IMG/VR virus record: IMGVR_UViG_3300018481_000019
Span: 29,818-93,817 of that record
Length of the DNA: 64,000 nucleotides
DNA from: a virus
Reading direction: 5' to 3' (one strand)
How positions within the stretch are numbered: position 1 is the first letter of the stretch; every line of letters begins with the position of its first letter. The notes under the pieces were generated by a model, which saw nothing but the letters and a program-made list of their open reading frames with translations, made no database searches and was not told where the DNA came from. A program made the translations under genes and the position numbers. Positions 10,884-63,716 of this stretch are shown piece by piece.

Positions 10884-11147
10884 TCAGTCGTCGGTGGGTC
10901 GCCAAGCCTGGTTGACCCAAGCGTCCCATTCCATTGCTTGCTTCTCGGCCTGAGCCTTTTGCTCCTGCCAATATTTCAGTCGATAGCTGGCGATGGATAC
11001 CAGAGCATCCAGGGCCAGAATCACCACCATCCCAAGGACGAATATCCGAGATGGTGTGTAGTCGGTGAAGATCATTTTCAATGCAGTATAACCCCAAGCA
11101 AGGGTCAGTGCAACATTCACGATGATGCCAAGTTTGTTTCGGTTCAT
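10884..11147 (-). CDS. Small membrane protein with two helices
   Basis: 87 aa with membrane segments at ~5-25 and ~34-53, then a charged Lys/Gln/Trp-rich tail (~57-87). ATGA overlap with the upstream gene. Confidence 0.7.
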   Translation of the reverse strand: MNRNKLGIIVNVALTLAWGYTALKMIFTDYTPSRIFVLGMVVILALDALVSIASYRLKYWQEQKAQAEKQAMEWDAWVNQAWRPTDD

Positions 11148-12070
11148 ATGTCCTCCGGTAGTAGTTGGTCCGCCAGTGACGGCGGTTCGGACGTGTCGAT
11201 TGTGATTGGGAGAATCGCGTGCTCTTTCAAAACGGCAGCGAAGCTCTCTAGGGCTTCCGCCGCCTTTTCCATTCCCTCAGTCGCCTCTTTCAATCCGATG
11301 GATTCCTCCACCACTTCATCGAAGTCGTCGGGCTGCTCGGGAATGTCTTTCACCGCTGCTTCCATCGCAGCCAAGTCAGCCAGTTCACTCACCAAGAATT
11401 CAATCTTGGGAGATGGAGTTGAATCCAGATTCGCTATCGCCTCTTCGACGGTGGCAGCGTCGTACCAAAAGGAAGATGCGCCCTCCGGTGTTGAAATGGG
11501 GGCGGAGTCGGCGTAGATGCCGACTCCCAAGCCCTTCATCGCTTCGTCTTTGGTCGGGTAGGCCCACCCGTTGTTCTTGGCGCAAACCGGCCCGTACCCG
11601 GCGAAGATGCTCCGCTCGTCGGTCAGATGGGCGGCACAATTGATGCAGATGCCGTAGGTCTTGCCGAACTTGGCGGCTTCCTCAGCGGGCATCCGAGTGG
11701 CCTCACTCAGACCTTTCAGCCCCCGCTTGCCCTGGTACTCAAAGCCCCAGGCTCCGTCAATCTCTTTCAGGAAGGAAGCGACGACATGCCCGTTCCGAGT
11801 CCGGTAGACCTTGACCGCCACTCCCGTCTCGGGGGAGATGTGCATTCCCTCCGGCACGTCGGCGTAGACCGGCTTGGGCTTCTCGACCTTGGGCTGCGCC
11901 AGAAGCCATTCGATGCGCTTGCTGGCTTCCTGCTTGGTCATGGTGTCGGAAGCGACTTGGGCCTCAACGTGGGCCTTGACCTCCGGGGTGAGTGACCGCT
12001 GCTCTATGAGCGAGACGATGAAGGCGATCTGCTTCTCGGTTGCGTAGCTTTCGGGCGGGGAGTATGTCAT
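11144..12070 (-). CDS. Zinc-binding protein with TEKQ N-terminal helix domain
   Basis: 308 aa, first gene after a TTGCGT/TATAAT promoter. N-terminal Y-A-T-E-K-Q-I-A-F-I helical domain (~8-60). Middle zinc module G-I-C-I-N-C...G-Y-G-P-V-C (~141-165), of a type seen in phage and plasmid proteins that bind nucleic acid (DUF6011-like, from memory). Acidic helical C-terminal third. It ends SLADQLLPEDI, a version of the recurring L-A-x-x-L-L-P peptide. Confidence 0.65.
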   Translation of the reverse strand: MTYSPPESYATEKQIAFIVSLIEQRSLTPEVKAHVEAQVASDTMTKQEASKRIEWLLAQPKVEKPKPVYADVPEGMHISPETGVAVKVYRTRNGHVVASFLKEIDGAWGFEYQGKRGLKGLSEATRMPAEEAAKFGKTYGICINCAAHLTDERSIFAGYGPVCAKNNGWAYPTKDEAMKGLGVGIYADSAPISTPEGASSFWYDAATVEEAIANLDSTPSPKIEFLVSELADLAAMEAAVKDIPEQPDDFDEVVEESIGLKEATEGMEKAAEALESFAAVLKEHAILPITIDTSEPPSLADQLLPEDI

Positions 12071-12845: not shown

Positions 12846-13478
12846 TCAAAACGGAGGTTTGTCGTCTCCGTCAGGGTCTTGGTCTTCGTCTAGCTTCGGG
12901 ATGGGCGGCGGTGCTTCCTCTTCCGCTGGTGGTTCCGCTGGCACCGGCAGAGGAACATCTGCACTTGCATCGTCGGTGTGCAGAGGTATCGGCGGTGGCG
13001 GAGGAACGTCGGCGGCAGTAGCGGCTCCGGCGAAATCGGGAGCGGGCGGAAGTTCGTCTTCACCCCCTGGTGGGTGCAAGCTCTTGACCTCAGTGCGAGT
13101 GTCACCTTCCCAATCGCGGTGTGACACATTGGCTACCACGGAACGGCCCACCATCAAACGAGCAAGGTCTTCCGGCGATGGGTTGTTGTCTCTGAGAAAT
13201 GCTTCTGTGAATCCGAGCGAGCGAAGCGCCCGGAGGAACATGCGGCGATGTCCCGGCTTGGATTCGTGATTTGGAAAAACGAGATTGTTCCAGAGGTACT
13301 CGTCGTCATACGGCCCACCGTCCACGACCAGCACCATTTCGATCATGGTCTTGCCGGTAGCGGCGGGCGATACCGTGGCTTCCTTCACCCGAGTCAGAAT
13401 CTTTCCAATGGGAATCAGATCAGCCGGTGCTCCGGTGGGGCTTGCCTCCCCCAAAATGTCGGACCAATTGAACGTCAT
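12846..13478 (-). CDS. Single-stranded DNA-binding protein (phage type)
   Basis: 210 aa. The N-terminal ~135 residues form a beta-rich domain (GKILTRVKEATVSP; IEMVLVVDGGPYDDEYLW) like phage SSB/DUF669 proteins. A long Pro/Ala/Asp/Glu linker ends in an acidic tip DGDDKPPF, the hallmark of SSBs that recruit partners. It overlaps the RecA-like ATPase by four bases, fitting a recombination/replication set with the nuclease and clamp nearby. Confidence 0.75.
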   Translation of the reverse strand: MTFNWSDILGEASPTGAPADLIPIGKILTRVKEATVSPAATGKTMIEMVLVVDGGPYDDEYLWNNLVFPNHESKPGHRRMFLRALRSLGFTEAFLRDNNPSPEDLARLMVGRSVVANVSHRDWEGDTRTEVKSLHPPGGEDELPPAPDFAGAATAADVPPPPPIPLHTDDASADVPLPVPAEPPAEEEAPPPIPKLDEDQDPDGDDKPPF

Positions 13479-20622: not shown

Positions 20623-21038
20623 TACTCGGGACCGAACCCGACTAGATGCCGGAGCACGTCACCAAAGCGGGCCTCATGCAATAGGCGACGACCATTTAAT
20701 TCGCCGCAGGCGCACTCTTCGATCTTGATGGAGATTCCGTAGTTGTGGTCCGAGTCATTGAACGTCCCGGCGAATTGGTCCCACTCGTCCTCACGAAGAT
20801 CGCTCCACTTCACGACCGAGCAGAGTTCATCCTCAGTCCCGCCGGGACGTAGGTGGTAGGTGGCCTCAAAGTCGTATGGCCCCCCGTAGTAGCCAGTGCG
20901 AGTGTCAATGTCGTCTCCGAGTGTCACCCATCCCCGCTCAATGACGTACTGCGCGACCGCGTCTTTGAATTGGTCTTGCCAAGTAGTTGTTGGCTTCTCC
21001 AATCCGTCAGCAAGTGCTTCCATCGCCCAATCGCTCAT
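20622..21038 (-). CDS. 138-aa acidic hypothetical protein
   Basis: ATGA overlap upstream and TAATG downstream. Mixed alpha/beta with C-A-C near residue 110 (KIEECACGEL). Not recognised. Confidence 0.65.
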   Translation of the reverse strand: MSDWAMEALADGLEKPTTTWQDQFKDAVAQYVIERGWVTLGDDIDTRTGYYGGPYDFEATYHLRPGGTEDELCSVVKWSDLREDEWDQFAGTFNDSDHNYGISIKIEECACGELNGRRLLHEARFGDVLRHLVGFGPE

Positions 21039-21208
21039 TCTTCCTCTTCTCCGGCAGGCTCGCCCTCACCGTCAGCGTGACGAGCGAGATGCCGTTCGAT
21101 TGCCTGCTCAAAGGTGGCAATCACTGTCCCGTTGGTCGAGTCCGGTGTTGTCCGGTGCGTCCCGTCGGGATAGTGAAGCCACTCGTCTCTCGGTGTTACG
21201 TTGGTCAT
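21035..21208 (-). CDS. 57-aa acidic-tailed protein
   Basis: Starts MTNVTPRDEWLHYPDGTH; its ATG overlaps the VWA gene's TAA (TAATG). Ends in E-E-E-E. Not recognised. Confidence 0.6.
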   Translation of the reverse strand: MTNVTPRDEWLHYPDGTHRTTPDSTNGTVIATFEQAIERHLARHADGEGEPAGEEEE

Positions 21209-28857: not shown

Positions 28858-29024
28858 TCTTCCTCCAAGGTGAGCTTCACCGTCTCACCGGGAACGAGAG
28901 GGCGCATCACCGCCACCGGAACCCCGGCGTGATAGATGATGAACGACTCCCCGGCTTTGAGCCGGTCCATGTATTCCTTGCCCTTGCGTGAGAGCAGGGA
29001 CCAATTGGCGTAGGTGAGGTTCAT
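28854..29024 (-). CDS. 56-aa Phd-like small protein
   Basis: MNLTYANWSLLSRKGKEYMD and onward. The pattern Y-M-D-R-L-K-A-G-E-S-F-I-I-Y-H-A-G-V-P-V-A-V-M-R-P resembles the N-terminal half of Phd/YefM antitoxins. No neighbouring toxin pairs with it obviously, so the label is tentative. ATGA overlap upstream. Confidence 0.6.
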   Translation of the reverse strand: MNLTYANWSLLSRKGKEYMDRLKAGESFIIYHAGVPVAVMRPLVPGETVKLTLEEE

Positions 29025-29380
29025 TCCTCTTCACCGCCTCCGCCGGTCACGGCATTGATCGCGTCGATCATGGCATCAACCCGAGCCACATCATCGGCAT
29101 TGAGAGTTTGCAGGGAAGTGAATATCGGCATCCCGTTGATTCCTCTCGGACCCGCCTTGTGCATCCATTCAAAAATCATGCCGTGCGACCCGCCCTCTTC
29201 GGTCGGCTCCAAGAGCTTGACCAAGTCGTCAATGGCGGGCTTGTCCATGAAGGCGAGCGGCATGAACACCATCGTCATTAGATTCGGGTCAGGAAGCATC
29301 CGGTCACAGAACACCGAGCCGGACATCAGGCCGAGAGCGATGTCACGGATTGACTTGTCGCTTTTTGAAACGTAGGTCAT
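29021..29380 (-). CDS. 119-aa hypothetical protein
   Basis: MTYVSKSDKSIRDIALGLMS and onward; Met-rich alpha/beta with a poly-Gly, poly-Glu end. ATGA overlaps on both sides. Not recognised. Confidence 0.65.
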   Translation of the reverse strand: MTYVSKSDKSIRDIALGLMSGSVFCDRMLPDPNLMTMVFMPLAFMDKPAIDDLVKLLEPTEEGGSHGMIFEWMHKAGPRGINGMPIFTSLQTLNADDVARVDAMIDAINAVTGGGGEEE

Positions 29381-32465: not shown

Positions 32466-32935
32466 CGACGGTTGGCCCGCTGCTCCGTCGGTGTCGCCCA
32501 CCGGCAGTTCCCAGGCTCGTAGTTGCCGTTGGGGTCAATGCGATCAAGTGAGTAGTAGGCCACTCGGCTTGTCCAGTCTTCGGGACTAGGCGGACGTTCA
32601 CCAACATCAGCGATGAAGTTTTTGAATCCACCATGCCCTAACCAATGTTCGCTCACTCTGATCCCGCGACCGCCGTAGTCCATGAAGTCCTTGATGTTTG
32701 GATTGAGGCATCGGTCGAGCATCGCCCGATAGACCCGATAGAGAGGATGGTTGTTCTCAGGGGAGTTGCACTTGCTACTTGCTCCATTCCTCAAATTGTC
32801 CGCAAAGACAATTACAGAGTTTCCGCATTCACACCGGCACAGCCACCGAACCTTGTGATACTTCCCACCATTCTCCGCTCTGGTTATCGCAGTCAATCGT
32901 CCAAACTTTTGCCCGGTCAGATCATTGACTCTCAT
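32462..32935 (-). CDS. AP2/HNH homing endonuclease-like protein
   Basis: 157 aa. N-terminal D-L-T-G-Q-K-F-G-R-L and C-R-C-E-C-G-N zinc module (~33-40); middle H-P-L-Y-R-V-Y-R-A-M-L-D-R-C-L-N-P-N and Y-G-G-R-G-I-R-V; C-terminal S-L-D-R-I-D-P-N-G-N-Y-E-P-G-N-C-R-W-A-T. This is the usual layout of free-standing HNH/AP2 endonucleases of phages. Its place between polA and ruvC suggests insertion by homing. Confidence 0.85.
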   Translation of the reverse strand: MRVNDLTGQKFGRLTAITRAENGGKYHKVRWLCRCECGNSVIVFADNLRNGASSKCNSPENNHPLYRVYRAMLDRCLNPNIKDFMDYGGRGIRVSEHWLGHGGFKNFIADVGERPPSPEDWTSRVAYYSLDRIDPNGNYEPGNCRWATPTEQRANRR

Positions 32936-34662
32936 AGATCAGCCCATGTTTTTCCCGGTCCTGAAATGGAAGCTGTCAGCGGCACCATTAGATCGGTGTG
33001 CGTCATAGAGGCAAGCATCACCCGCTTGGCCTCTTCGACGTACTTCTCGGGAATAGAAAGCAACACTTCATCGTGAACGGGGATCAGCATGTAATCCTCC
33101 ATCCCGGCGTGACCGAGAGCGAGCAGGGATCGCTTTAGGTATTCGGCAGCAGCGCCTTGAATCTTGAAGTTGGTCGCGGCATACAGGGTGGCGGGGTCAA
33201 CGGGCAAGAACCGGCCTCCGAGAGTCATAACCCCGCCGGTTGCTCGGGCCTCTCGTTCGATGGTCTTTTGCAAATGGAACAGAGCGGGGTAGGACTCCCT
33301 CACTCCCATCTTGACTTCCGCCATGCGCTCAGTTGGGACACCGGCTCGCACCGCCATTGTCTCAATTCCAGCACCGTACAATTGCGAGTACCAATAGGTC
33401 TTCGCCATGTTGCGCCGGGTGTCGGACTTTTCGATGGTGGGGTCTTTGAAAATCTCCCGAGCAGTCTGAAGGAAGAAATCACCGCCAGCGAAAGCCTCAC
33501 CGAGCGCCTTGTCTCCGGCGAGCGATGCAGCGATGCGGAGTTCGATCTGCTCGTTATCGACCGACATCAGCACTTCATCTTCTCGCAGGGGGAGCACGGC
33601 TTGTCGAACCAACCGGGACTCGGGGTCGGAGTTGGGCTTGGGCAGAGTTTGTAGCGCCGGGGAACGGATGCTCATGCGTCCGGTGCGAGCGGCAACGGTG
33701 TCGATGGAAGGATGGATGATTCCATCGTGATTGAAAGTGAGGAAGTTGGCGAAGTAGGTGGAAGCCAACTTCTCGGTCTTGCGTACCCGCATTACCGAGC
33801 GGGCTACGTTGGCTGAGTCCCGGTCGCCGTAGGCCACGATCTTTTCCAGCGTCGGCTTATCGACGGCGATACGTCCCTTCTCGGTGCGCTTGGTGAGCAG
33901 CGAGCGGTCGGTGTTGGTGATGAACCAGCGGCCTAGCTCGTCGGGACTTGCCAGATTCACAATGCCCCGGTACGAGAGCTTCAGACCTTCAGCCTCCGAA
34001 CTGAGTTCAGCGAATTTCATTCGTGAGAAATCGCCGTCGATCCTCATGCCGTTGTGCTCCATCTGATTCGATAGCGAACGGACTCCCATCTCCAAGTCGT
34101 AGACCGGCGACTGAATCACTCTTTGAATCTCGGGTAGCTCGTAGATGCGGCTTGTCAGGATCACGTCGAGTGCGGCGTAGTAGAGATAGGTTTCAAAGTC
34201 GATGGGAATGTCCTGCCACCCCCACTTCTGCTTCGCCATTGCCTTTTTCAAATCTTCCTCCGCACCCCCATCGGACCCGAGCAGTCTCCGAGATGCAGCC
34301 TTCAGCCCTGCCGGTTCGGTGGGGTAGGCGATTCGTAGGGCGATCATGGTGTCGTCCAGTTTTCGCCAGGGAAGTTCGACTCCATGAACTGCCAGCGCAG
34401 GCACGTCGTAGGCAGTGTTGTGGATAACGAAGGGGCCGGAGTGCTTTTCAAAAACCCAATTGAAAAGACCGGGCCACTGGTCGAGTCTCGCGAGCCAAGC
34501 GAAGTCCGGTGAACCAATCTGAATCAGGCGTACCGAGAAGTCGTGGGCATGGAAGTCGAGTCCGGTGGTTTCCGTATCGACCGAGATGTAGGGACGGTGA
34601 GCTAGCCAGTCGGTGAAGTCGGCAACATCGTCACCGGATTGAATCAGCCGGTACAGGCTCAT
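32932..34662 (-). CDS. polA: Family A DNA polymerase with 3'-5' exonuclease
   Basis: 576 aa, lacking the 5' nuclease. Exonuclease motifs: V-D-T-E-T-T-G (~30), I-H-N-T-A-Y-D, Y-Y-A-A-L-D-V. Polymerase motif A is M-S-V-D-N-E-Q-I-E-L-R, an unusual D-N-E for the common D-Y-S; motif B R-R-N-M-A-K-T-Y-W-Y-S-Q-L-Y-G; motif C V-H-D-E-V-L. The residue matching E. coli Phe762 is Tyr, as in T7. The stop overlaps the HNH start as ATGA. Confidence 0.9.
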   Translation of the reverse strand: MSLYRLIQSGDDVADFTDWLAHRPYISVDTETTGLDFHAHDFSVRLIQIGSPDFAWLARLDQWPGLFNWVFEKHSGPFVIHNTAYDVPALAVHGVELPWRKLDDTMIALRIAYPTEPAGLKAASRRLLGSDGGAEEDLKKAMAKQKWGWQDIPIDFETYLYYAALDVILTSRIYELPEIQRVIQSPVYDLEMGVRSLSNQMEHNGMRIDGDFSRMKFAELSSEAEGLKLSYRGIVNLASPDELGRWFITNTDRSLLTKRTEKGRIAVDKPTLEKIVAYGDRDSANVARSVMRVRKTEKLASTYFANFLTFNHDGIIHPSIDTVAARTGRMSIRSPALQTLPKPNSDPESRLVRQAVLPLREDEVLMSVDNEQIELRIAASLAGDKALGEAFAGGDFFLQTAREIFKDPTIEKSDTRRNMAKTYWYSQLYGAGIETMAVRAGVPTERMAEVKMGVRESYPALFHLQKTIEREARATGGVMTLGGRFLPVDPATLYAATNFKIQGAAAEYLKRSLLALGHAGMEDYMLIPVHDEVLLSIPEKYVEEAKRVMLASMTHTDLMVPLTASISGPGKTWADL

Positions 34663-40660: not shown

Positions 40661-41701
40661 TCATGCCTTGGAGACTGTGTCGGTGCTGTCGGTCCACGTT
40701 CCGGCAACGTTTTGCCAGATCGCGTATTCGGTTCCGCCGTCGTCGTAGAACGCCGCACTGTCGTTAGCGGGCAATCCCGCTGGCGGGGTAGTGCCGGGAT
40801 CGACTGTGACGATATCCACGTCCGGTGGAATCGGTGTGATATCGACTGCCGAATCGACCCAACTTCCCGCACGGACAATCCACACCGAACCATCGTCGCT
40901 GGTGACGATGATCGACCCGTCGGGTGCTCCCGTCGGGCCAGCGATGGGAGCGGTTCCCATTCCGGCTGTCGGGGTATCAACGTCCAACTCCGGGTTCAGC
41001 GTGTTCTCTTCGTCAGCGGGCCACTCGTTGCCGTCGCCGGGTGTGCCTTCGGCCCAACCGAATGCTGGCAGAGCAGCGGTGCGGACGTAAGAGAATGGAT
41101 TCTCCAACGCTTCCTTGTACGTGACCCAACTGTCGTCCACGTTGTTCGGGTTGAGTCCAGTGGGAACGAGCGCTGCGTTGCCGAGCGCTTGTCCTGTGAA
41201 CTCATTGGTGAGCGCCGAGTTTCCAAACTCACGGTCGCCTTCGTAGCGCACTTTCACGTAGGGGAAAACCCAATGCCAATACGGTTGTCCCGCGGCAGGC
41301 TTTCCGCCCACGTTGGCGGTTGACCAAATCTCAATCGCGACGGGGTTGCCGACCACCGAACCCACGACGGGTGAGGTATAGCCGACCACGTTTCCGTTTT
41401 CGTCAAGAATGATCTTTCCGCCTGCGAGCAAGGCTGCGGCTTCGGGATCGGGCGCACATAGAGCAAGGCTGAAATTCAGCCGCTTCAGTGTGTCGTCCGC
41501 CTTCCATGAGATACACACTCCGCCGTCGGCTCGCTTCTCTGCAATCTCGTCGCCTTCCTCAAACTCGGGCGAGAAGGTTGCGGAGATGAAACCGCGGGTG
41601 GTGAGGATCGGGAAGTCCGGGTCAATCGACCCGTCCGTGTTGAGACGGGTAATCCGAATCGCATTGCCCATTACCGACGACGCTCCGTCTCTATGAGCCA
41701 T
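40661..41701 (-). CDS. Major tail protein-like (tail tube)
   Basis: 346 aa. Begins G-N-A-I-R-I-T-R-L-N...F-I-S-A-T-F-S-P-E-F-E-E-G-D-E-I-A-E-K, as in actinophage tail tube proteins, with F-P-Y-V-K-V-R-Y and E-F-T-G-Q-A (~165-190). A Pro/Asp/Thr-rich C-terminal extension (~235-346) with a small beta-domain probably decorates the tail surface. Confidence 0.75.
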   Translation of the reverse strand: MAHRDGASSVMGNAIRITRLNTDGSIDPDFPILTTRGFISATFSPEFEEGDEIAEKRADGGVCISWKADDTLKRLNFSLALCAPDPEAAALLAGGKIILDENGNVVGYTSPVVGSVVGNPVAIEIWSTANVGGKPAAGQPYWHWVFPYVKVRYEGDREFGNSALTNEFTGQALGNAALVPTGLNPNNVDDSWVTYKEALENPFSYVRTAALPAFGWAEGTPGDGNEWPADEENTLNPELDVDTPTAGMGTAPIAGPTGAPDGSIIVTSDDGSVWIVRAGSWVDSAVDITPIPPDVDIVTVDPGTTPPAGLPANDSAAFYDDGGTEYAIWQNVAGTWTDSTDTVSKA

Positions 41702-41770: not shown

Positions 41771-43792
41771 TCATGCGATGGTGACTGCGCCGCCAACGCC
41801 GCCCTTGGTCTTCACGGCCAGTGTGCCGGTGTAGCTCCACAGTCCGTCCGCCACGCCAGTCCCAGGACCGATGTAGGCCAAAGCCTCAAACGTCTCAGTG
41901 AAGGTGCAGTAGCGGTTGGTCTGAATGTCTTCCTTCGTCCGAACCACGCCAAGGTCGAGCGACCCACCGTCGAGACGGAGGAAAGCGCCAGTGGCATAGA
42001 GGATGAAGTCGAACGTGACGGGGTACGCATTCTTCGCTGCGAACCCGCCGCCGGGAGTCAGACCGTCGAGTGACCAAACGGCATCGACGTTGAAGTCGCT
42101 GAACCATCCATCGACTTCTGATGCACTGGTGTTGAGCGCATCGTCGCCGGGAGCCTGGAACGTGAGGTCCGCTGCCATTGCATCCCGAACCCAATTCGGA
42201 GCGATGAAGGTCAGTGGGGTCGTCTGCGAGAGACGGTTGTTCCAACGGAACTCCTGAGCGGCAATCCGAATCGCCTTCAGTGTGTCCCGCGACGTGCCAA
42301 GCACAGTGGTTCCGGCGGCACCGACACTGGTGGAAGCACCCTTCATTATGCCGAGAATCCATTCCTCAGCCATGCGTGCTTGCTGCACCAGGGCGAAATC
42401 CGTGTTGGCTCTGATCCACTCGGGGTATGCCCGCTGGTGGAGGTTGGAGAAACACAGACCCATTGTCAGTGCGACCAACTCGGCCTCACCGTTCACGCCA
42501 CACTCCACATCGAAGAATGGCTTCAGAGCGGGGTCCAGATCATCGGGTGCCACGCCGCCTGTCACCGCGGCCAGTGCCATATCGGTTCCAGTCACGGCGG
42601 CTTCGTCGGGATCGCCTGGGGTCCACACGCTCACACCGCGGGGATTCACTGCGGTAGGCCGCATGATCGACGGTGGGCGGGTGAAGATGATCCCTCCCCG
42701 ATCCGCATTGAACGTCGGGATCGAACTAGCGACGGGCCGGTCGGTTGTCCCGATGGTCGGCACGTCATAGATCGGCACCTTGGGCGCGCACCATCCGGCG
42801 GCGACCAGGGCTTCCCGAGTCAAGTTGGCGGGATCGGAAATCAACTGGCGCACCTTGCGCGCATTCCCGATGGTGTCTGAGGATGAAAGCGTCTGATCCT
42901 CTGTCGGCTCGTTCCGGTTGCGAATCGACGCGACGAGAATGTGCTCCCCGTCTCCGGCGATGCCGCGAATCGAATTGACCTTGGCGGCAAAGGCTTCCGC
43001 CACTCCATCCAAATCGGTCAACTCTGACCCTGCGGTGTAGCCGGGGATATCGCCGCCAGCGAGAATGACATTGGGACGCTCGGCAGGTGCGGCGCTCGGA
43101 GCGTTCTCTGCCGGAACGTCCGATGCCGTGACTTCGATGTCCACGGAATTGTTCTCCTGTTCGGTTGTGGCGGAAGCAGTCTCGGGAGCAGGCTCGCCTT
43201 CGGCGGGCGGTTGCTCTTCCTCCGGTGCTGGCTCCCCTTCGGGTGCTGGCTCTGCGGGCTGCTCTTCCGGTGCTGGCTCGGACGCGGGTTCCGCTGGTGC
43301 GGGTTCCGGTTCCGGCGCTGGCTCGGCAGGCGGCTCTTCGGGAGCGGGTGCGGGAGCAGGCTCGGCGGGCGGCTCGGGCTGAGGCTCGGGCTGTGGCTCG
43401 GCGGGCGGCTCGGGTGCTGGCTGTTGCTCTGCTTGCGGAGCGGGAGCGGCTTCGCCTGGTGGCGTACCGATCTGTGATTCCGGCGATTCGGCACCTAGTC
43501 CTGTGGCGGCGACGGGGGTAACCGTCGCGTCCGTGGCTCCACTTGTCGTGGTGGTCGCACTGGCGGCTGCCGGTACTTCCTCTGCGGGTGCTTCCGCTGG
43601 TGCGCCAGTCTCGGAGCGGCGGGTCTTCTCGGCGCGGACTTCATCAAGTCCGTCAGCGAGATTTTGCATTGCGTCAACGTCACCGGCTTCGTCGGCGGCA
43701 TCGAACGCTGCGACCATCTCCTGCTCTAGCGCGTCCAACTCTTCGTCGGAAAGATCAGGCAACGTCGAAAGACGCTCTGTGAAATCCTCCAT
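41771..43792 (-). CDS. HK97-like major capsid protein with scaffold-like N-terminus
   Basis: 673 aa. Residues 1-60 are a charged coiled coil (delta/scaffold-like). ~70-215 is a Pro/Glu/Ala linker of P-A-E/P-E-P repeats. From ~225 on come E-loop, A-domain and P-domain-like segments (F-D-V-E-C-G-V-N-G; A-R-M-A-E-E-W-I-L-G-I-M; L-T-F-I-A-P-N-W-V-R-D; E-T-F-E-A-L-A-Y). The HK97 core starts about one third in. The linker is odd: it may be cut on maturation. Confidence 0.8.
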   Translation of the reverse strand: MEDFTERLSTLPDLSDEELDALEQEMVAAFDAADEAGDVDAMQNLADGLDEVRAEKTRRSETGAPAEAPAEEVPAAASATTTTSGATDATVTPVAATGLGAESPESQIGTPPGEAAPAPQAEQQPAPEPPAEPQPEPQPEPPAEPAPAPAPEEPPAEPAPEPEPAPAEPASEPAPEEQPAEPAPEGEPAPEEEQPPAEGEPAPETASATTEQENNSVDIEVTASDVPAENAPSAAPAERPNVILAGGDIPGYTAGSELTDLDGVAEAFAAKVNSIRGIAGDGEHILVASIRNRNEPTEDQTLSSSDTIGNARKVRQLISDPANLTREALVAAGWCAPKVPIYDVPTIGTTDRPVASSIPTFNADRGGIIFTRPPSIMRPTAVNPRGVSVWTPGDPDEAAVTGTDMALAAVTGGVAPDDLDPALKPFFDVECGVNGEAELVALTMGLCFSNLHQRAYPEWIRANTDFALVQQARMAEEWILGIMKGASTSVGAAGTTVLGTSRDTLKAIRIAAQEFRWNNRLSQTTPLTFIAPNWVRDAMAADLTFQAPGDDALNTSASEVDGWFSDFNVDAVWSLDGLTPGGGFAAKNAYPVTFDFILYATGAFLRLDGGSLDLGVVRTKEDIQTNRYCTFTETFEALAYIGPGTGVADGLWSYTGTLAVKTKGGVGGAVTIA

Positions 43793-53894: not shown

Positions 53895-54304
53895 TGCCAC
53901 TGATGAACGAACCCCCGGCTCCGCTCACCGCCGAGAAACTCAATGACGTGGCATGGGCGCTCGACGCTCTGACCAAAGTGAGTCGGTCACTGCTAGAGCC
54001 AATCGCCGCAGCCGGTGAACAGGACACACTCCATCTCACCGAAGTCACGGTGGAAGTGACCATGCACGGCGAGCCGATCAGTCCCGAAGATGCTCGGACA
54101 CTCTTGGAGTGGCTCGACGGCGACGAGATGCAGAACGATCTTCGGGCGGAGGCAAAGCGGCGGGAGACGCGGTCATTCGACTTCCCATACGACGACATAC
54201 GGCGGGCAGTGACGAATGCTCTGTTCGACCATGAGTCACCACAAGATCAAACGAATGTCATTGTGGAGAAGGTGCGTCAGATCATGGTGGAGGAATCCGA
54301 ATGA
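53894..54304 (+). CDS. 136-aa hypothetical protein
   Basis: Starts MPLMNEPPAPLTAEKL (TGATG overlap). Helical; contains L-T-E-V-T-V-E-V-T-M-H-G-E-P strands. Not recognised. Confidence 0.65.
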   Translation: MPLMNEPPAPLTAEKLNDVAWALDALTKVSRSLLEPIAAAGEQDTLHLTEVTVEVTMHGEPISPEDARTLLEWLDGDEMQNDLRAEAKRRETRSFDFPYDDIRRAVTNALFDHESPQDQTNVIVEKVRQIMVEESE

Positions 54305-54564
54305 GCGCTGAACTACACCGAGCCGAGCTAGAGGTTGTCCTACGGGACCAGTTCGACAACATCGGATACGGACACGCCGCCGCCACCAATGACGACATTC
54401 TCAGAGAGCTTGAAATCACCGACGAGATGGTGCAGTTGCTAGCTGGCCTCTTGTCCACGATTCCGATACAGCCGTCGAAGATGCACCCCGAGCACATGAT
54501 CGAAACGGCTCGGGTGGCATTGGAGATGCTCGTTCGGAGCGCCGACGGAGGGGAAGAGGAATGA
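54301..54564 (+). CDS. 87-aa acidic helical protein
   Basis: MSAELHRAELEVVLRDQFDN; ATGA overlaps at both ends. All-alpha. Not recognised. Confidence 0.65.
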   Translation: MSAELHRAELEVVLRDQFDNIGYGHAAATNDDILRELEITDEMVQLLAGLLSTIPIQPSKMHPEHMIETARVALEMLVRSADGGEEE

Positions 54565-54806
54565 CCGGAACCTTGCTGACTCTGCCGGTGACAACCGACA
54601 AGATGATCGACCGTGCAATTGCCAAAGCCGACGAATTGCTGGTGGACTACGAGACGGGCTACTGCACCTATGACGGGTGGGGAATCCGACAGTGCTGCGC
54701 CGCTTGGAGTCCAGCGGTTCGTCTCAACATCATGGACCGCTCAGAGCTAGACCAGGCCGTTCGACAAATCGTGACTGCGGCATTGGCAGGGGAGGAAGAG
54801 GAATGA
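54561..54806 (+). CDS. 81-aa protein with a C-C pair
   Basis: MTGTLLTLPVTTDKMIDRAI; contains Y-C-T-Y-D-G-W-G-I-R-Q-C-C. Overlap ATGA. Not recognised. Confidence 0.65.
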   Translation: MTGTLLTLPVTTDKMIDRAIAKADELLVDYETGYCTYDGWGIRQCCAAWSPAVRLNIMDRSELDQAVRQIVTAALAGEEEE

Positions 54807-55093: not shown

Positions 55094-55506
55094 ACATGGC
55101 GGGGAACACCGAATGGGAAACCAGTGCCGATTCGATTCGGGAGCGTCATTGTGTCACTTGCGATCACACCGGCTACTCGCATTTCTACGACCGGCTCGGC
55201 AACTTGGCGGAGTGCCATGTATCGGCCTGCAAATGCCTGCTCTTCTCCGACCCGACCGGGCTATCTCCCACTGAGATTGACACGATGATGTCGCAGTGTT
55301 GGGACGAAGATGCCGATGCGATCATTCACAACATCGCTGCCTTGATCGCCGGATTGCAAGTGCCGATATCTCTTGGCATGGGCCGTGATGGGGTTCTCGG
55401 GACTGCCGCCGAGCCGTGGCATGAGCTATTCAACGTCGTGGGCGGAGGATGGTGTACCACGGAGGAAATCGAATCCCGACTGCGGGAAAGGCTCACTCCG
55501 AGATGA
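55090..55506 (+). CDS. 138-aa Cys-containing protein
   Basis: GTG start with GTGA overlap (an ATG lies two codons later). C-V-T-C (~21-24) and C-x-x-x-x-C (C-H-V-S-A-C-K-C; ~43-50) make a zinc site; the rest is helical. Confidence 0.65.
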   Translation: MNMAGNTEWETSADSIRERHCVTCDHTGYSHFYDRLGNLAECHVSACKCLLFSDPTGLSPTEIDTMMSQCWDEDADAIIHNIAALIAGLQVPISLGMGRDGVLGTAAEPWHELFNVVGGGWCTTEEIESRLRERLTPR

Positions 55507-55685
55507 AGCCGGAATGGGTGACCGCTGGCACCCGAGCGCCGTTTCGGATTCTGTTTTGGAGTGAGCATGAGGAAGCTCTGGCCTGGGTTTTTGAAAACGG
55601 CGGAACCATCGCCCGTATCCCCGACCACGTTGACGGCACAGGCCGTGGCTACGTGTGGGGCCAATCACAGGAGGAAGAGGAATGA
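55503..55685 (+). CDS. 60-aa hypothetical protein
   Basis: MKPEWVTAGTRAPFRILFWS; ATGA overlap. Aromatic-rich alpha/beta; acidic EEEE end that also encodes the next ribosome site (GGAGGAAGAGG). Confidence 0.65.
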   Translation: MKPEWVTAGTRAPFRILFWSEHEEALAWVFENGGTIARIPDHVDGTGRGYVWGQSQEEEE

Positions 55686-56616: not shown

Positions 56617-56807
56617 CGACCCAAGACTGGCTCGGACTTTCAGTGCTTTTGAATTTCACCTTCATCGCCGCCATAGCCGGGATACTTCGCGGGCGGTGGT
56701 TGGCACGGCCCATTGATGAAGAGGCTCGACATTTGGAAATCGAAGCTGCCGAGATGCGGGGCATGGCGAGAGGGATAGCTTGGGGCAAGGACTACGAGAA
56801 TGAGTGA
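56613..56807 (+). CDS. 64-aa membrane protein
   Basis: MTTQDWLGLSVLLNFTFIAA: one membrane helix (~7-26), then a helical cytoplasmic tail. ATGA overlap. Confidence 0.65.
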   Translation: MTTQDWLGLSVLLNFTFIAAIAGILRGRWLARPIDEEARHLEIEAAEMRGMARGIAWGKDYENE

Positions 56808-57048
56808 GCACTATCGGCCCGTCGGCAAGCGCACCGATGCTCGGGTGCTAGCTCAGGGCTACTACTGCATGACGTGTGGTGAAAGCGGATTGAACATGAT
56901 GGGGATTGGACACGGACACGGAACCGATCTTTCTCGGTGCAAGCCGAATCCCGAGCTTGTCCATCGGCTTGCCATTGTCAATAGCCCGACGTGGGAAGAG
57001 GATATGAAGCACTTCACGTCCAGCTTGGCCGACGAGCTTTTGCCATGA
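56800..57048 (+). CDS. 82-aa protein ending SLADELLP
   Basis: MSEHYRPVGKRTDARVLAQG; Y-Y-C-M-T-C-G-E-S-G and C plus His-Gly-His-Gly (G-I-G-H-G-H-G) suggest zinc binding. The last residues are S-L-A-D-E-L-L-P, the same as in a leftward gene at 59336. The tail's CCATGA overlaps the next start. Confidence 0.7.
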   Translation: MSEHYRPVGKRTDARVLAQGYYCMTCGESGLNMMGIGHGHGTDLSRCKPNPELVHRLAIVNSPTWEEDMKHFTSSLADELLP

Positions 57049-57915: not shown

Positions 57916-58311
57916 TCACTCGGGGAGCAAGTCTGAGAGCATGGCATAGCCCCGGTTCATTTTCTCCAACTTGACCGCCCCGAGCAACAAGCGGATTCGG
58001 ATTAGCAATCGTCTCCGGCAGTGGCCGGGGCTAATGCAGTGAACGGAATCGTCGTAGGGGAAGTAGGCGACACCGAATGCCGGGTGCTCTGCCACGACCT
58101 TGTCAGAGGGTACGAAACCGCACCAATCGCATTTCTTGTAAGGGAGTTCGTAAGTCCAGTACGGCTCCGGGTGGAGGAACTCGCTCTTGACGATGCCTGC
58201 TCCGTCTGTGACAACGATGTGGGCGTGGTCGCCGTGAGCGTCGGCGGTTTCGCTCTCTCGGGTCCAACGCTCCATGAATCGCTTTCGGTATTCGCCGTGT
58301 ATGTCGCTCAT
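57916..58311 (-). CDS. Zinc-binding protein ending the paralog operon
   Basis: 131 aa starting MSDIHGEYRKRFMERW (ATGA overlap). C-D-W-C-G-F-V-P (~75-82) and H-C-I-S-P-G-H-C (~105-112) make a two-part zinc ribbon; W-T-Y-E-L-P-Y-K-K precedes. Ends M-L-S-D-L-L-P-E, again with the L-L-P tail. Confidence 0.75.
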   Translation of the reverse strand: MSDIHGEYRKRFMERWTRESETADAHGDHAHIVVTDGAGIVKSEFLHPEPYWTYELPYKKCDWCGFVPSDKVVAEHPAFGVAYFPYDDSVHCISPGHCRRRLLIRIRLLLGAVKLEKMNRGYAMLSDLLPE

Positions 58312-58574
58312 GGCAGGAGATAGGTGTCCAGATCGCGGGGAACGGTCTTGGGAACGCAGCCACCGTTTCTTCGGATGGAGTCCCACAGTTTCTTGTAGCG
58401 CTGATAGGCGCTTTCAAAATCAGTGTGAGCACTGAGGCGATAATTCCTCCCGGTGTATTGCCAGCCGCCGTCCTTGGTTTTCATCCCGGCCTTTCCGACC
58501 ACGATGAAGAAATCATCTTCGGCTTGCACTTCGGCTTCGATGATTACGGCGGTTTGGAAACGCTGAACGCTCAC
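58308..58574 (-). CDS. Tandem paralog E, L-L-P tail
   Basis: 88 aa, GTG start (GTGA). Beta-strands A-V-I-I-E-A-E-V and F-F-I-V-V-G, then Y-R-L-S-A-H-T-D-F-E-S-A-Y-Q-R-Y, and the end P-R-D-L-D-T-Y-L-L-P. Aligns along its length with the four genes upstream. Confidence 0.75.
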   Translation of the reverse strand: MSVQRFQTAVIIEAEVQAEDDFFIVVGKAGMKTKDGGWQYTGRNYRLSAHTDFESAYQRYKKLWDSIRRNGGCVPKTVPRDLDTYLLP

Positions 58575-58813
58575 GACAGCAAGTCCTTCCACGGTTCACG
58601 TTCTCCGAAGAGCGCCAGCGGGACCACCTTCATTGGATTGAGGATGCTCAGTGTTTCTTGATAAGCGGTTATGGCTTTCCTGGCATCTGTCCGGGTCGGA
58701 TACCGATTGAGAATGTAACGCTCGCCGTCGGCGGCTTCCCCGATGATTGCATAGGGCTGAAAGAGATAGCCTTCTAGGAAGAGACGCACCATGATGATTT
58801 CAACCGTCGTCAC
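58571..58813 (-). CDS. Tandem paralog D
   Basis: 80 aa from GTG (GTGA). T-T-V-E-I-I-M-V-R-L-F-L-E-G...Y-A-I-I-G-E-A, Y-P-T-R-T-D-A-R-K-A-I-T-A-Y, ending W-K-D-L-L-S. The most diverged member, with a weak form of the tail peptide. Confidence 0.7.
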   Translation of the reverse strand: MTTVEIIMVRLFLEGYLFQPYAIIGEAADGERYILNRYPTRTDARKAITAYQETLSILNPMKVVPLALFGEREPWKDLLS

Positions 58814-59094
58814 GGCAGGAGGTAGTCCGGTAGATCGTAGGGAACGGTACGAATGAAAGGTCGGAGCTTCCCGGTGTCGTGAAGCCGGTCGTGGTAGCGC
58901 ATTCTCCGCTTGGCTGCATCGTCGTGGTGGGAATGGACGCTGAGAAGATATTCGTTCTCTGTTGCCCACCAACCCATCTCGGAACCTTCCGGCGCTTTAT
59001 ATCCTGAGTTGCCGAACACCGCCCAACTGCCGCCGGGGAGCACCTTGATGAAGACTCGGACGATGTAAACCTGTTTTGAAAGTGTGTCGCTCAT
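58810..59094 (-). CDS. Tandem paralog C, L-L-P tail
   Basis: 94 aa. V-Y-I-V-R-V-F-I-K-V...W-A-V-F-G-N-S-G, Y-L-L-S-V-H-S-H-H-D-D-A-A, ending P-Y-D-L-P-D-Y-L-L-P. ATGA/GTGA overlaps on both sides. Confidence 0.75.
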   Translation of the reverse strand: MSDTLSKQVYIVRVFIKVLPGGSWAVFGNSGYKAPEGSEMGWWATENEYLLSVHSHHDDAAKRRMRYHDRLHDTGKLRPFIRTVPYDLPDYLLP

Positions 59095-59339
59095 GGCAGG
59101 AGATACTCAAAGAGATGCCGACGGACTCCGCGGGGGAAAGTTTTGTGAGAGTGAATTCGTTCTTGGTAGTGGTTCAGTGATTCCACGGCCTCTTCGTGCG
59201 TGTTCTTGATTGCGATGATGTAGCGGTAGTCATTGAGAACGGTCCAATCATCGGCATAGCCGAGTATCCACCACTCGCCGTCATGCTCGACCAGTGCGAC
59301 GGCAACGATTCTCACTGTTTTGTAAAGATGGTCGCTCAT
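59091..59339 (-). CDS. Tandem paralog B, L-L-P tail
   Basis: 82 aa starting MSDHLYKTVRIVAVAL. W-W-I-L-G-Y-A-D-D, A-I-K-N-T-H-E-E-A-V-E-S-L-N-H-Y-Q-E-R-I, F-P-R-G-V-R-R-H-L-F-E-Y-L-L-P. Closest to paralog A (shared K-T-V-R-I, T-H-E-E-A-V, F-P-R). Confidence 0.75.
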   Translation of the reverse strand: MSDHLYKTVRIVAVALVEHDGEWWILGYADDWTVLNDYRYIIAIKNTHEEAVESLNHYQERIHSHKTFPRGVRRHLFEYLLP

Positions 59340-59539
59340 GGCAATAGCTCGTCGGCTAGGGACGGCGCACACAAAACCATTGGTGGGTCGGTCTTGTGCA
59401 TCCAAACTGACTTGTGACCGCCCCGATGGTCGGGGGTGGAAAGAACGTGGAGCTTGATGTCCTCACCACAGAAGTTGCAGACCGGGGGCCATTTCACCAT
59501 GTCAACATCGGACCCTTTGCGGGGAGTGGCTTGTTTCAT
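59336..59539 (-). CDS. Zinc-ribbon small protein ending SLADELLP
   Basis: 67 aa starting MKQATPRKGSDVDMVKW. V-C-N-F-C-G-E-D-I...K-S-V-W-M-H-K-T-D...C-A-P-S-L-A-D-E-L-L-P. Parallels the 59799 gene (C-V-N-C-G-Q-R-I...A-W-V-H...C...L-S-A-E-L-L-P), so the two zinc proteins are likely duplicates interleaved with the paralog family. Confidence 0.75.
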   Translation of the reverse strand: MKQATPRKGSDVDMVKWPPVCNFCGEDIKLHVLSTPDHRGGHKSVWMHKTDPPMVLCAPSLADELLP

Positions 59540-59802
59540 TTCAAAAGCTCGCTGCTCAAATCCCAAACATGGACCCACCGGGGAAAGGACGGTTCGTCGG
59601 AACCGATGCCGTGGAAGTAGTAGCGGTAGCTGGCTACGGCCTCTTCGTGGGTGTCGTGTTGGGTGAGAACGTGTCGTGTTGCGCCGGAGTCCATGCTCGA
59701 CTTGCCGTTGTACCCGACGACGACGTATCTCTTCGCAGCCGTGACATCGACTTCGATCTGCGCCCATTCGATACGGACGGTTTTCATTCCGTTGACCCTC
59801 AC
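59536..59802 (-). CDS. Tandem paralog A
   Basis: GTG start at 59802 overlapping the upstream stop (an ATG lies five codons in). M-K-T-V-R-I-E-W...Y-V-V-V-G-Y-N-G, Q-H-D-T-H-E-E-A-V-A-S-Y-R-Y-Y, F-P-R-W-V-H-V-W-D-L-S-S-E-L-L-K. First member of the five-gene family in transcription order. Confidence 0.7.
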   Translation of the reverse strand: MRVNGMKTVRIEWAQIEVDVTAAKRYVVVGYNGKSSMDSGATRHVLTQHDTHEEAVASYRYYFHGIGSDEPSFPRWVHVWDLSSELLK

Positions 59803-60005
59803 GGCAATAGCTCTGCGCTCAGATCACGGACGATGCAGTCTTGGGTGCGAAAGATGGTGCGTCGGTCAGAGTGGACCCAGGCGTATTCCTCCACTCCACC
59901 TGAAATGCTGGTTATCACTCCATGAATGCGTTGCCCACAGTTGACGCAAATGTCGTGATACGGGACGAACGGAGGCGCACCGATAGTGGTTTCGGCTTTG
60001 GTCAC
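59799..60005 (-). CDS. Zinc-ribbon small protein ending DLSAELLP
   Basis: 68 aa, GTG start (GTGA). H-D-I-C-V-N-C-G-Q-R-I, then A-W-V-H-S-D-R-R and C-I-V-R-D-L-S-A-E-L-L-P. Duplicate of the 59336 product. Confidence 0.7.
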   Translation of the reverse strand: MTKAETTIGAPPFVPYHDICVNCGQRIHGVITSISGGVEEYAWVHSDRRTIFRTQDCIVRDLSAELLP

Positions 60006-60367: not shown

Positions 60368-60395
60368 ATTATAGCCCATTTGAAATGGAATGCAA
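60368..60395 (-). promoter_or_regulatory. Promoter: TTGCAT-N16-TATAAT
   Basis: Spacer contains ATTTCAA; leader TCTTAGTGCAAGACACAGACAG, described as TCTTAGTGCAAG then ACACAGAC. Drives the leftward paralog operon (60.3-57.9 kb). From 60396 to 60557 I see no gene. Confidence 0.9.
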
Positions 60396-60557
60396 ATTCT
60401 TTGGAACTCCCGGTGGAGCGTGGCGATCAGTGCATCCGGTGTCCGCTCTCGCGGGTGGCGTTGGCCTTCTCCCGACCGGGGGTTCTGTGTTGTATGTCGC
60501 GAACGAGCGCAGAAACGAAAGCGATTTCCGAAAGAAATTTCCACTACGCTCTCACCC

Positions 60558-60970: not shown

Positions 60971-61155
60971 GGTCCGCCCAACTTGCGCTCGCCTACTTGG
61001 GCGGGGCGCTGCTTCTGCTCTCGACCATTCTCTTCACCACCAACGCTTCTGACACGGCGGTCACTTTTGCGGTTATCTTTGCAATAGCAGGATTGGTCGT
61101 CGTCGCTGCACTCGGGGCGATCATCATTTACGAAGCCCGAAGGACGGGAACATGA
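60967..61155 (+). CDS. 62-aa membrane protein with two helices
   Basis: GTG start (GTGA). Hydrophobic segments ~4-23 and ~30-54, then a basic end E-A-R-R-T-G-T. Coupled to the MuF gene by ATGA. Could be a holin-like or injection-site protein. Confidence 0.6.
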   Translation: MRSAQLALAYLGGALLLLSTILFTTNASDTAVTFAVIFAIAGLVVVAALGAIIIYEARRTGT

Positions 61156-63716
61156 CCACGCGGCAAGCGGAGCCGGTCACAGCGGAGCAAGTTCAGGAGC
61201 TTCCCCGAGATGTGTCACCGTATTTACAAGCCCTGGTACTCGCCTATCTTGCCTCCGGCGGTGAGGACTCAGAGCAGACCAACCGCCGAGCGGTCCTTTT
61301 CCGCAAGGCTCTTGCTGCCGCTGCCCTTGGCGCGTTCCTGTTCCGTGACCGGGACAAGGATGCCACCGTCGATATCGACTTCACCGAAACTGCCGAGCCT
61401 TTCACCGCCGCGGTGAAGGAATCGGTGAATGACTATCTAGCTCGGGACGATGAGGGTCGGGATTCAAAAACGGATTCCAAGTTTGCCGAATCGGTCGCCA
61501 GCACCCTTTCCACCGGCGCAGCCAATCGACTCACCCTGGAAGTTCTCAACCAACTCGACCCGGACGGCACCGCTTACAAAAAGCTGTGGCTAACTCGGGG
61601 CGACGAGAAGGTCCGTCTCTCACACCGGGAGCTTCATGGCCGCACTGCCAGCGTCGGGGAGCCTTTCAAAAAGGGGCTGAACTATCCCGGCGATCCCACC
61701 GCTCCGCTGGACGAGCGGATCAACTGCCGGTGCTTCCTTTTCGCAGTCCCGTCGGACAAGGACACCGAGACTGCCAACGCCTTTGAACCGGCTGATCTGA
61801 CCACCGCTTTCGCCGCCAGCGCCACCCTTCACGTCCTCACTGCCGGAGACACATTGCGGCGGCTGATAAATCTTGCGCCCTGGCTATGGCAACCGCGGGA
61901 TTCGATTGGTCGGTGGGTCGAAGTGGGCGACATTATGAATGCCCCTGGTTCGTCGGGAAAGGGCCGGGAGAACGGGCGAGTGGTCGAAGTCATTGGGAAG
62001 AACCGGGTTCGTTTGGAAAGTCTCCGCTTCCCCGGTCGCACATGGGACGTGGATTCTCGGGACACCGCACAGCAATTTTTCAAGGGGCGGCTCGGGATGG
62101 ACGACAGACCGACCTTGCCCCATCTTCAGCCGATTCCCACTCCCAAGGCCCGCGGTCTTCCGCCGGAGTTTGGGGAACTGACCCCGGAGATTCCAAATCG
62201 TCCGGTAGAGCGCGAGCTTCGCACGCCGGTCTATGGCCTGGATCAGCAAGTGGCGGGCGCTCCCATTTTTGAAAGCGATGAACTGACTCCCGGCAAGGTC
62301 GTGGTGGTGGAGTCCAAGTCCAAGCCGGGAACCTTCCGACACATGGTTGTGGACGAAGTCGGTGAGGACGGCAACACGGTTCTCTTGCTCTACCCGCCCG
62401 AGCCACGGCGCAAGTCGGCAGAGGCGACTTACCAGGGACCGCATGGGCAATTTGAATACAACCGGGTCTTCCAGTTGCAGTCTCCGTCGGCTCGCCAGGA
62501 AGTCTTTTTGAATGAAGGCGTGCTTTACGAACCGGCTGATCCTGACTTGGCGCAAGAGGTCACCGAGCGTATGGATATGGGCCGATACGGTTTTGCAAAT
62601 CCGTACTGGTTCAGTAGCACAGAAGACGCATTCAAACAGGGAGGCGCTCGCACGGACTGGAACCCAGAACGCAAGGAATTGCACGACAAGATAATTCAGG
62701 AGACTTTCGACGCGGCACTGGTCGCGGACGGGCCACCGATCTTCTACCTCATGGGTGGCGGGCCTGCATCGGGAAAGAGCACGATGCTGGAAGCCGAGTT
62801 GGTGCAAGTCCCGACCGGCAATGGCGCGATTCAAGTCAATGCCGACGACATCAAGTTTGAAATCCCTGAGTTCATCGGGTTACTGGAAGCCAATGAGAAG
62901 AACGCCGCTCAGTTCGTGCATGAAGAGTCCTCAGACATCTCGGGCCGGATGGTTCGGGAAGCCCCACTCGACAAGCACATCGTCATGGACGGGGTTGCTG
63001 ACAAGGGCGCGGGCGCGGTGCTCAGTCGATTGGAAACCGCTCGGAAGCGGAACATGAGGATCGTCGCCAACTACGCCACCCTCCCAACCGATATGGCGAT
63101 CCGGCTCGCTGACGAGCGTGGTGCTGTGACGGGTCGGTACGTTCCCCATCCCTTTATCGAAAAGACGCACGCCGATGTGGTCGATACCTTTTTCGATCTG
63201 GCGAAGGGCGGCGTGATCCATGAGATGTGGCTGTGGAACAATGAGATTTTCAGAGAGCCGCGACTGATCTTCAGTCAAGTGGACGGGGTTTCCAAGATTC
63301 ACGATGAAGCTCTGCTCTTGGAATTTCTGAACAAGAGCAAGACCAAGCGACACACGATGGAAAGCGTCGTCGCCATGACTGACAGTGGTTTCGCCTTCCC
63401 GCCCGCGCCGCCGTATCTGCCGCCGACGCCGACACCGCCGGGGGCGATTCTGCCGGAGGTATCCGGTGTAGCTGGTGAAGTGCCAGCGAGTTTGGCGGCG
63501 GCAGGATTGGAGGCCGTCGTGGAGGACGGGTATTGGAATCTGGACTACGACACGATGGAGCGAGCGGCAATCGAAGTCTCCGCCGAGATGCGCGGTTCGG
63601 TGGGTCCATCCCGGCTCCCCGACGATGATCCTCAGATCAACGCTTTCAAGGAAGCGCTGCGGGCTGAGTTCGCCGCCAACCCCGACCGGCAGTATTGGTT
63701 GCCGAACAATCCGTGA
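61152..63716 (+). CDS. MuF head protein fused to a zeta-toxin-like kinase
   Basis: 854 aa. N-terminal helices, then a MuF domain (~145-194: L-W-L-T-R-G-D-E-K-V-R-L-S-H...Y-P-G-D-P-T-A-P...I-N-C-R-C). At ~250 W-Q-P-R-D-S-I-G-R-W-V-E-V-G recalls the L-H-P-R-G-x-D-G-K-F-I-E modules at 3.3 and 4.5 kb. The C-terminal part holds a P-loop G-G-G-P-A-S-G-K-S-T (~535-544), V-N-A-D-D-I-K and D-K-H-I-V-M-D-G-V-A, as in zeta/PezT kinases of UDP-sugars or nucleotides. Such MuF-toxin fusions are packaged effector candidates. Confidence 0.8.
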   Translation: MTTRQAEPVTAEQVQELPRDVSPYLQALVLAYLASGGEDSEQTNRRAVLFRKALAAAALGAFLFRDRDKDATVDIDFTETAEPFTAAVKESVNDYLARDDEGRDSKTDSKFAESVASTLSTGAANRLTLEVLNQLDPDGTAYKKLWLTRGDEKVRLSHRELHGRTASVGEPFKKGLNYPGDPTAPLDERINCRCFLFAVPSDKDTETANAFEPADLTTAFAASATLHVLTAGDTLRRLINLAPWLWQPRDSIGRWVEVGDIMNAPGSSGKGRENGRVVEVIGKNRVRLESLRFPGRTWDVDSRDTAQQFFKGRLGMDDRPTLPHLQPIPTPKARGLPPEFGELTPEIPNRPVERELRTPVYGLDQQVAGAPIFESDELTPGKVVVVESKSKPGTFRHMVVDEVGEDGNTVLLLYPPEPRRKSAEATYQGPHGQFEYNRVFQLQSPSARQEVFLNEGVLYEPADPDLAQEVTERMDMGRYGFANPYWFSSTEDAFKQGGARTDWNPERKELHDKIIQETFDAALVADGPPIFYLMGGGPASGKSTMLEAELVQVPTGNGAIQVNADDIKFEIPEFIGLLEANEKNAAQFVHEESSDISGRMVREAPLDKHIVMDGVADKGAGAVLSRLETARKRNMRIVANYATLPTDMAIRLADERGAVTGRYVPHPFIEKTHADVVDTFFDLAKGGVIHEMWLWNNEIFREPRLIFSQVDGVSKIHDEALLLEFLNKSKTKRHTMESVVAMTDSGFAFPPAPPYLPPTPTPPGAILPEVSGVAGEVPASLAAAGLEAVVEDGYWNLDYDTMERAAIEVSAEMRGSVGPSRLPDDDPQINAFKEALRAEFAANPDRQYWLPNNP

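Follow-up and report, generated by a model that had tools for sequence, protein, structure and literature searches.

A recurrent, mostly C-terminal octapeptide on several protein families of an actinobacteriophage-like virus and its possible role as a docking motif

Tagged genes in the window

The stretch of DNA analysed here, in the following called the window, has a length of 64,000 nucleotides and forms the right-hand part of a viral record of 93.8 kb. The closest matches of this phage among cultured phages are actinobacteriophages, and its capsid maturation protease is about 44-53% identical to those of Arthrobacter, Gordonia and Microbacterium phages. Using a simple custom script, supplemented by two genes added by hand, we called 122 proteins (27,253 amino acids). 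At 61152-63716 (+) a MuF domain is fused to a zeta toxin domain, as is also the case in L124 and L125. In the relative, the MuF-zeta gene runs on into a homolog of the leftmost gene of our record (L002:30-728), so that the 93.8 kb record is probably a circularly permuted, near-complete genome.

We found that an octapeptide of the form [D/S]-L-x-x-[E/Q/Y]-L-L-P is present in eight proteins of this phage. Its copies, together with degenerate and tag-like ends and the promoter of the small genes, are given below in window coordinates.

2314-2337 (+): DLAGELLP, residues 3-10 of the capsid maturation protease (2308-3225)
4788-4811 (+): DLAGELLP, residues 523-530 of the polyvalent protein (3222-6179)
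11156-11179 (-): SLADQLLP, followed by EDI, C-terminus of the DUF6011 protein (11144-12070)
57022-57045 (+): SLADELLP, C-terminus of a CxxC protein (56800-57048)
57919-57942 (-): tag-like MLSDLLPE with a spacing different from that of the motif, end of a CxxC protein (57916-58311)
58311-58334 (-): DLDTYLLP, C-terminus of a beta-domain protein (58308-58592)
58574-58597 (-): decayed EPWKDLLS, C-terminus of a beta-domain paralog (58571-58813)
58813-58836 (-): DLPDYLLP, C-terminus of a beta-domain protein (58810-59094), a low-confidence tail in the AlphaFold2 model
59094-59117 (-): HLFEYLLP, C-terminus of a beta-domain protein (59091-59339)
59339-59362 (-): SLADELLP, C-terminus of a small CxxC (zinc-ribbon-like) protein (ORF 59336-59767, likely start within 59554-59515)
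59539-59562 (-): degenerate DLSSELLK, C-terminus of a beta-domain protein (59536-59787)
59802-59825 (-): DLSAELLP, C-terminus of a small CxxC (zinc-ribbon-like) protein (59799-60005)
60368-60396 (-): sigma70-like promoter TTTGCA-17-TATAAT ahead of the minus-strand small-gene operon

A first-pass annotation of this DNA had listed a number of such ends, and all of them are present as quoted. Two entries of that list, GGLLP (53676) and LSDLLPE (57916), nevertheless fall outside the motif and may be chance matches or decayed copies.

The same annotation regarded the carriers as unrelated proteins of different folds. Indeed, at least five families bear the tag, namely the beta domain, the zinc ribbons, the DUF6011 protein, the capsid maturation protease and the polyvalent zincin protein. 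However, the five beta carriers are paralogs: 58308, 58810 and 59091 are related by BLAST (E 4e-8 and 4e-4), and 59536 and 58571 are weaker paralogs that can be aligned with them. A second and looser group consists of the CxxC proteins 59799 and 59336, possibly together with 56800. Toxin-like proteins, which had also been proposed, were not found among the carriers. In the polyvalent protein the HEFGH region and an ART-like N-terminal sequence were read by eye, no Pfam family passing its cut-off.

In an AlphaFold2 model of good confidence (pLDDT 84.8), the beta domain consists of three strands followed by a helix and one further strand. The tag lies outside the modelled domain, and the last five residues (90-94) have a pLDDT below 50, a tail confidence that is indirect evidence of disorder. 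The model of the CxxC protein was too poor for use (pLDDT 57.7). A fold search with the beta model against the PDB gave only weak matches, to PriB and SSB (E 0.2 or worse), and the viral library returned only uncharacterised proteins (E 0.05 or worse), so that these matches were set aside as evidence; no relatives of the tested carriers were found among defence systems or solved structures. Where examined, the tag is located in tails or linkers that are predicted or apparently disordered.

It could be argued that the tag reflects common descent only, that is, one expanded paralogous family plus chance. The five beta paralogs and the loose similarity of the CxxC carriers would agree with this. 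However, no domain was detected that connects the protease, the polyvalent protein and the DUF6011 protein with the beta or CxxC carriers or with each other, and within the tag the x positions have diverged while the fixed positions have not. We therefore consider an origin by descent alone improbable.

Frequency and conservation of the peptide

The pattern L..[EQYD]LLP occurs in nine of the 122 proteins, compared to a mean of 0.154 and a maximum of 3 in 2,000 residue shuffles. Six copies form the exact C-terminus (shuffle mean 0.001), one lies near the C-terminus, one is internal and one is N-terminal. Since the motif was defined post hoc from the same data, these shuffle odds are overstated, and for this reason we give most weight to the relatives as a control. 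A search over the encoded proteins of the phage and its relatives, as advised in the first-pass annotation, bore out the enrichment: only one of 1,046 ORFs from related phage loci (369,667 amino acids) contains the pattern, and none carries it at the C-terminus. Relaxing the pattern to L..[EQYD][LIVMF][LIVM]P added no further protein of the phage, which indicates that the motif is sharp. Moreover, a search for common C-terminal patterns that made no use of the motif ranked L...LLP first in this phage, and the same search in G003, G004 and G010 gave nothing above shuffles. The octapeptide motif on the phage proteins is real.

The conservation resides in the peptide and not in the DNA. Across 12 copies of the tag, Leu-6 is encoded by five different codons, with a third-position information of 0.04 bit, whereas the second positions of the tag Leu codons carry the full 2 bits (2.0). 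The two SLADELLP copies use TCC in one case and AGC in the other for the serine; they are thus not recent copies of the same DNA, and recent DNA copying was rejected as a source of the tags.

The comparison with close relatives covers a single relative, represented by contigs of 7-9 kb (L005/L106 and L125), in which the capsid maturation protease is 84% identical. The polyvalent ortholog (L106) has DLSKELLP at the same site, in a proline-rich linker that is otherwise diverged; among the codons for D, L, E, L, L and P there are five changes, all of them synonymous, whereas the residues at both x positions have been replaced. The DUF6011 ortholog ends in PLRMELLPEDLS, compared to SLADQLLPEDI in our phage. 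Here the ELLP tail is kept, and L..xLLPED has been preserved through synonymous changes in a C-terminal region that otherwise differs. In the protease ortholog the N-terminal tag is absent. Hence, two of the three testable orthologs retain the peptide and one does not. Judged from these substitutions, selection on the tag acts at the level of the peptide.

The copies in the protease and the polyvalent protein could also be understood if a peptidase of the phage or the host recognised or cleaved the tag; candidates would be the maturation protease, the zincin domain or a host C-terminal degron pathway. One copy is at the N-terminus of the maturation protease and another is in the Pro-rich linker upstream of the zincin-like HEFGH region, both places where self-processing is expected, and it has been proposed that the zincin domains of polyvalent proteins process polyvalent proteins (PMC5512222). 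However, the majority of copies form the exact C-terminus, so that cleavage there would take off a few residues at most. The major head protein, the portal and the other large polyvalent proteins lack the tag, as does the nearest protease ortholog. A peptidase site is accordingly judged very improbable.

In more distant homologs the tag is absent, so that the test on orthologs gives a mixed result overall. It is missing from the polyvalent linkers of G003, G004 and G010, with a gap at the motif in the G003 alignment, and the G003 DUF6011 ortholog ends in DELPEEE. The sole homolog found for 56800, in another phage (L129, 51% identity across residues 7-61), likewise has an end without the tag. 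Together, this suggests that the tag is a lineage-specific addition, which would have been gained, or lost elsewhere, independently of the domains that bear it. Viral contigs, scanned with 59799, 57916 and the primase-polymerase, yielded no relatives of the small genes. A relative of the tagged operon was likewise not found, and cultured phages gave no match to 56800, 58810 or 59799. With a degenerate DNA pattern describing DLxxELLP at coupled gene ends, we obtained 12 single matches, compared to a rough chance expectation of 14.

Fixed hydrophobic positions, free x positions, a location in flexible tails or linkers and an occurrence on unrelated proteins are the usual signature of a docking motif. 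The description as a portable short linear motif, made in the first-pass annotation, agrees with the peptide-level selection, the disordered location, the several unrelated carriers and the lineage-specific gain. From these sequence features, we consider it likely that the tag is a docking motif for one common partner. It would probably form a two-turn amphipathic helix with D/S as N-cap, Leu 2, 6 and 7 on one face and Pro as a helix stop, and such a helix would bind one groove on the common partner.

Overlapping gene ends

The exact C-terminal copies all overlap the start of the downstream gene, with the sequence CCATGA or CCGTGA. The tails might therefore be by-products of translational coupling, in that an RNA signal upstream of the overlapping start happens to read ELLP. 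Other tails of the phage do resemble Shine-Dalgarno sequences: a second repeated C-terminal tail, (G)EEEE, is found at coupled junctions of 54301-54564, 54561-54806, 55452-55685, 21035-21208 and 29021-29380 and, in contrast to the LLP tag, appears to be a Shine-Dalgarno sequence (such as GGAGGAAGAG) read as codons.

However, the Leu codons of the tag vary freely, the internal and N-terminal copies are away from junctions, and none of the other coupled junctions (n=59) ends in LL[PKS]. The strong anti-Shine-Dalgarno pairing of a Shine-Dalgarno-derived tail is not seen at the tagged junctions, where pairing is weaker than at the others (median -2.6 versus -8.0 kcal/mol, P 0.0025). Thus, it had been correctly remarked in advance that coupling explains only the final Pro codon and the stop. 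The only junction of the tagged family with a strong Shine-Dalgarno site is that of 58571, and there the tag has decayed to WKDLLS. Based on eight junctions, we infer that the tag competes with the ribosome-binding signal rather than arising from it. An origin of the tails as coupling by-products is largely refuted and hardly credible.

Candidate partners of the tag

The segment containing the sigma70-like promoter is also present in the relative (L125, 1-330), where it lies ahead of a different first gene (MNLNAHLF.. in the window and MSYTFTMPKTF.. in L125). This suggests that the promoter-led site is a cassette site for variable genes. A promoter scan showed no excess over shuffles, and the conservation in L125 is the better evidence for the promoter. 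Its position ahead of the small tagged genes suggests that they may be expressed early. The DUF6011 gene is located among replication genes.

The C-terminal tip of bacterial SSB is a disordered, acidic-hydrophobic docking peptide, and it resembles the tag in its disordered C-terminal location and in the docking role that is likely for the tag. The protein encoded at 12846-13478 (-), a probable phage single-stranded DNA-binding protein with a PHROG match of unknown function, ends in such an SSB-like acidic tip, DPDGDDKPPF. This protein's own tip, DDKPPF, is unlike the tag, and an SSB-type tip was rejected as the identity of the tag.

For the partner of the docking motif, an early intracellular hub has to be weighed, i.e., a host protein or a DNA-bound phage protein such as a beta-type sliding clamp, on which the injected polyvalent effector, the DUF6011 protein of the replication block and the promoter-driven small proteins would all dock. 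The two conserved carriers are an effector of the injected type and a protein encoded among replication genes, the small carriers lie behind a conserved sigma70-like promoter, and the phage has a beta clamp gene whose product ends in the canonical MPVRL. In T4, short peptides mediate the docking of gp33, gp55, ligase and polymerase on gp45; linkers connect these peptides to unrelated proteins of the phage, and a hydrophobic patch binds them (PMC7892883). The tag shares this linker-joined arrangement. Unlike in T4, however, the polymerase of our phage (family A, 32932-34662) is untagged, while a capsid protease and a virion-type effector are tagged.

The phage helicase and exonuclease lack the motif as well, and it is not obvious why a capsid maturation protease should interact with a hub of this kind. 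The sliding clamp had been named as a possible partner in the first-pass annotation; this idea finds no sequence support, since [DS]Lxx[EQY]LLP does not fit the bacterial clamp-binding consensus QL[SD]LF (PMC9690074) or a close variant of it in a scan of the phage, and the clamp consensus was rejected as the identity of the tag. An intracellular hub is a serious rival to prohead targeting, but we regard it as rather unlikely.

The likeliest partner may be a protein of the prohead interior, i.e., a scaffold, core or major head protein. The maturation protease, the polyvalent ADP-ribosyltransferase/zincin-like effector, the DUF6011 protein and the variable proteins of 60-95 residues would then be enclosed in the head and subsequently injected into the next host. 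We favour prohead targeting because the tagged set of protease, effector and small proteins parallels that of T4. The distribution over the late genes also agrees with this, the tag being confined there to the maturation protease and one polyvalent effector and missing from portal, major head, terminase and tail proteins. The T4 prohead core contains the protease gp21, the ADP-ribosyltransferase Alt and small variable internal proteins, and a CTS of ten residues suffices to bring IPIII into the head, the propeptides of the other IPs being inferred to act likewise (PMC9026906, PMC5694885). Similar to the CTS of IPI, IPII, IPIII and Alt, the tag is a common peptide of about ten residues on several dissimilar passengers of one phage, including small variable proteins and an ADP-ribosyltransferase effector; in both cases the passengers are lineage-specific, and the T4 protease also enters the core (PMC9026906, PMC5694885). 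In contrast, the CTS is found at the N-terminus and is cleaved off by the gp21 protease, whereas the tag, known from sequence alone, has six exact C-terminal copies and one N-terminal copy.

A second parallel is provided by encapsulins, HK97-fold shells that capture cargo via C-terminal peptides (PMC8346489). As in encapsulins, the tag is short, mostly C-terminal, sometimes N-terminal, and found on unrelated proteins (PMC8346489), although the reported peptides (e.g. of the TVGSL type) differ in sequence and encapsulins are cellular compartments. Phage and shell targeting peptides are thus known already, and the tag would add a mostly C-terminal phage counterpart.

Several observations count against the prohead. 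The protease ortholog that is 84% identical is untagged, the small genes have a sigma70-like promoter, and the DUF6011 gene belongs to the replication region. The tag is also absent from three further large proteins that are probably part of the virion (838, 2136 and 854 amino acids). Moreover, internal proteins of the T4 type are described as basic, whereas the tagged small proteins are near neutral (median pI 6.2), being less acidic than other small proteins of the phage (P 0.02) but not basic. Overall, by analogy with T4, a docking motif that directs its carriers to the prohead interior is a possible reading with a little less than even chances. More tentatively, an encapsulin-like, mostly C-terminal cargo-loading peptide might fill the head with protease, multidomain effector and variable small host-takeover proteins, so that the tag would label injected genes.

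Most small genes of actinobacteriophages have no known role, and a portable tag offers a way to group such genes from their sequence. If head targeting is true, the tag would predict injected proteins and could be used to load reporter proteins into such heads. Even with another hub as partner, it would tie at least five unexplained gene families to one interaction.

The major head protein (41771-43792), a candidate docking shell for the tag, and the major tail protein (40661-41671) are both encoded on the minus strand, at a large distance from the portal, protease and terminase genes, a division of the head genes that is unusual. Finally, a segment around LHPRG(H/R)DGKFI is present in two copies in the polyvalent protein 3222-6179 (+) and again in other large virion-region proteins; its other bearers, in this phage and relatives, include the loci L003:5980-8496 and L003:8489-14899.
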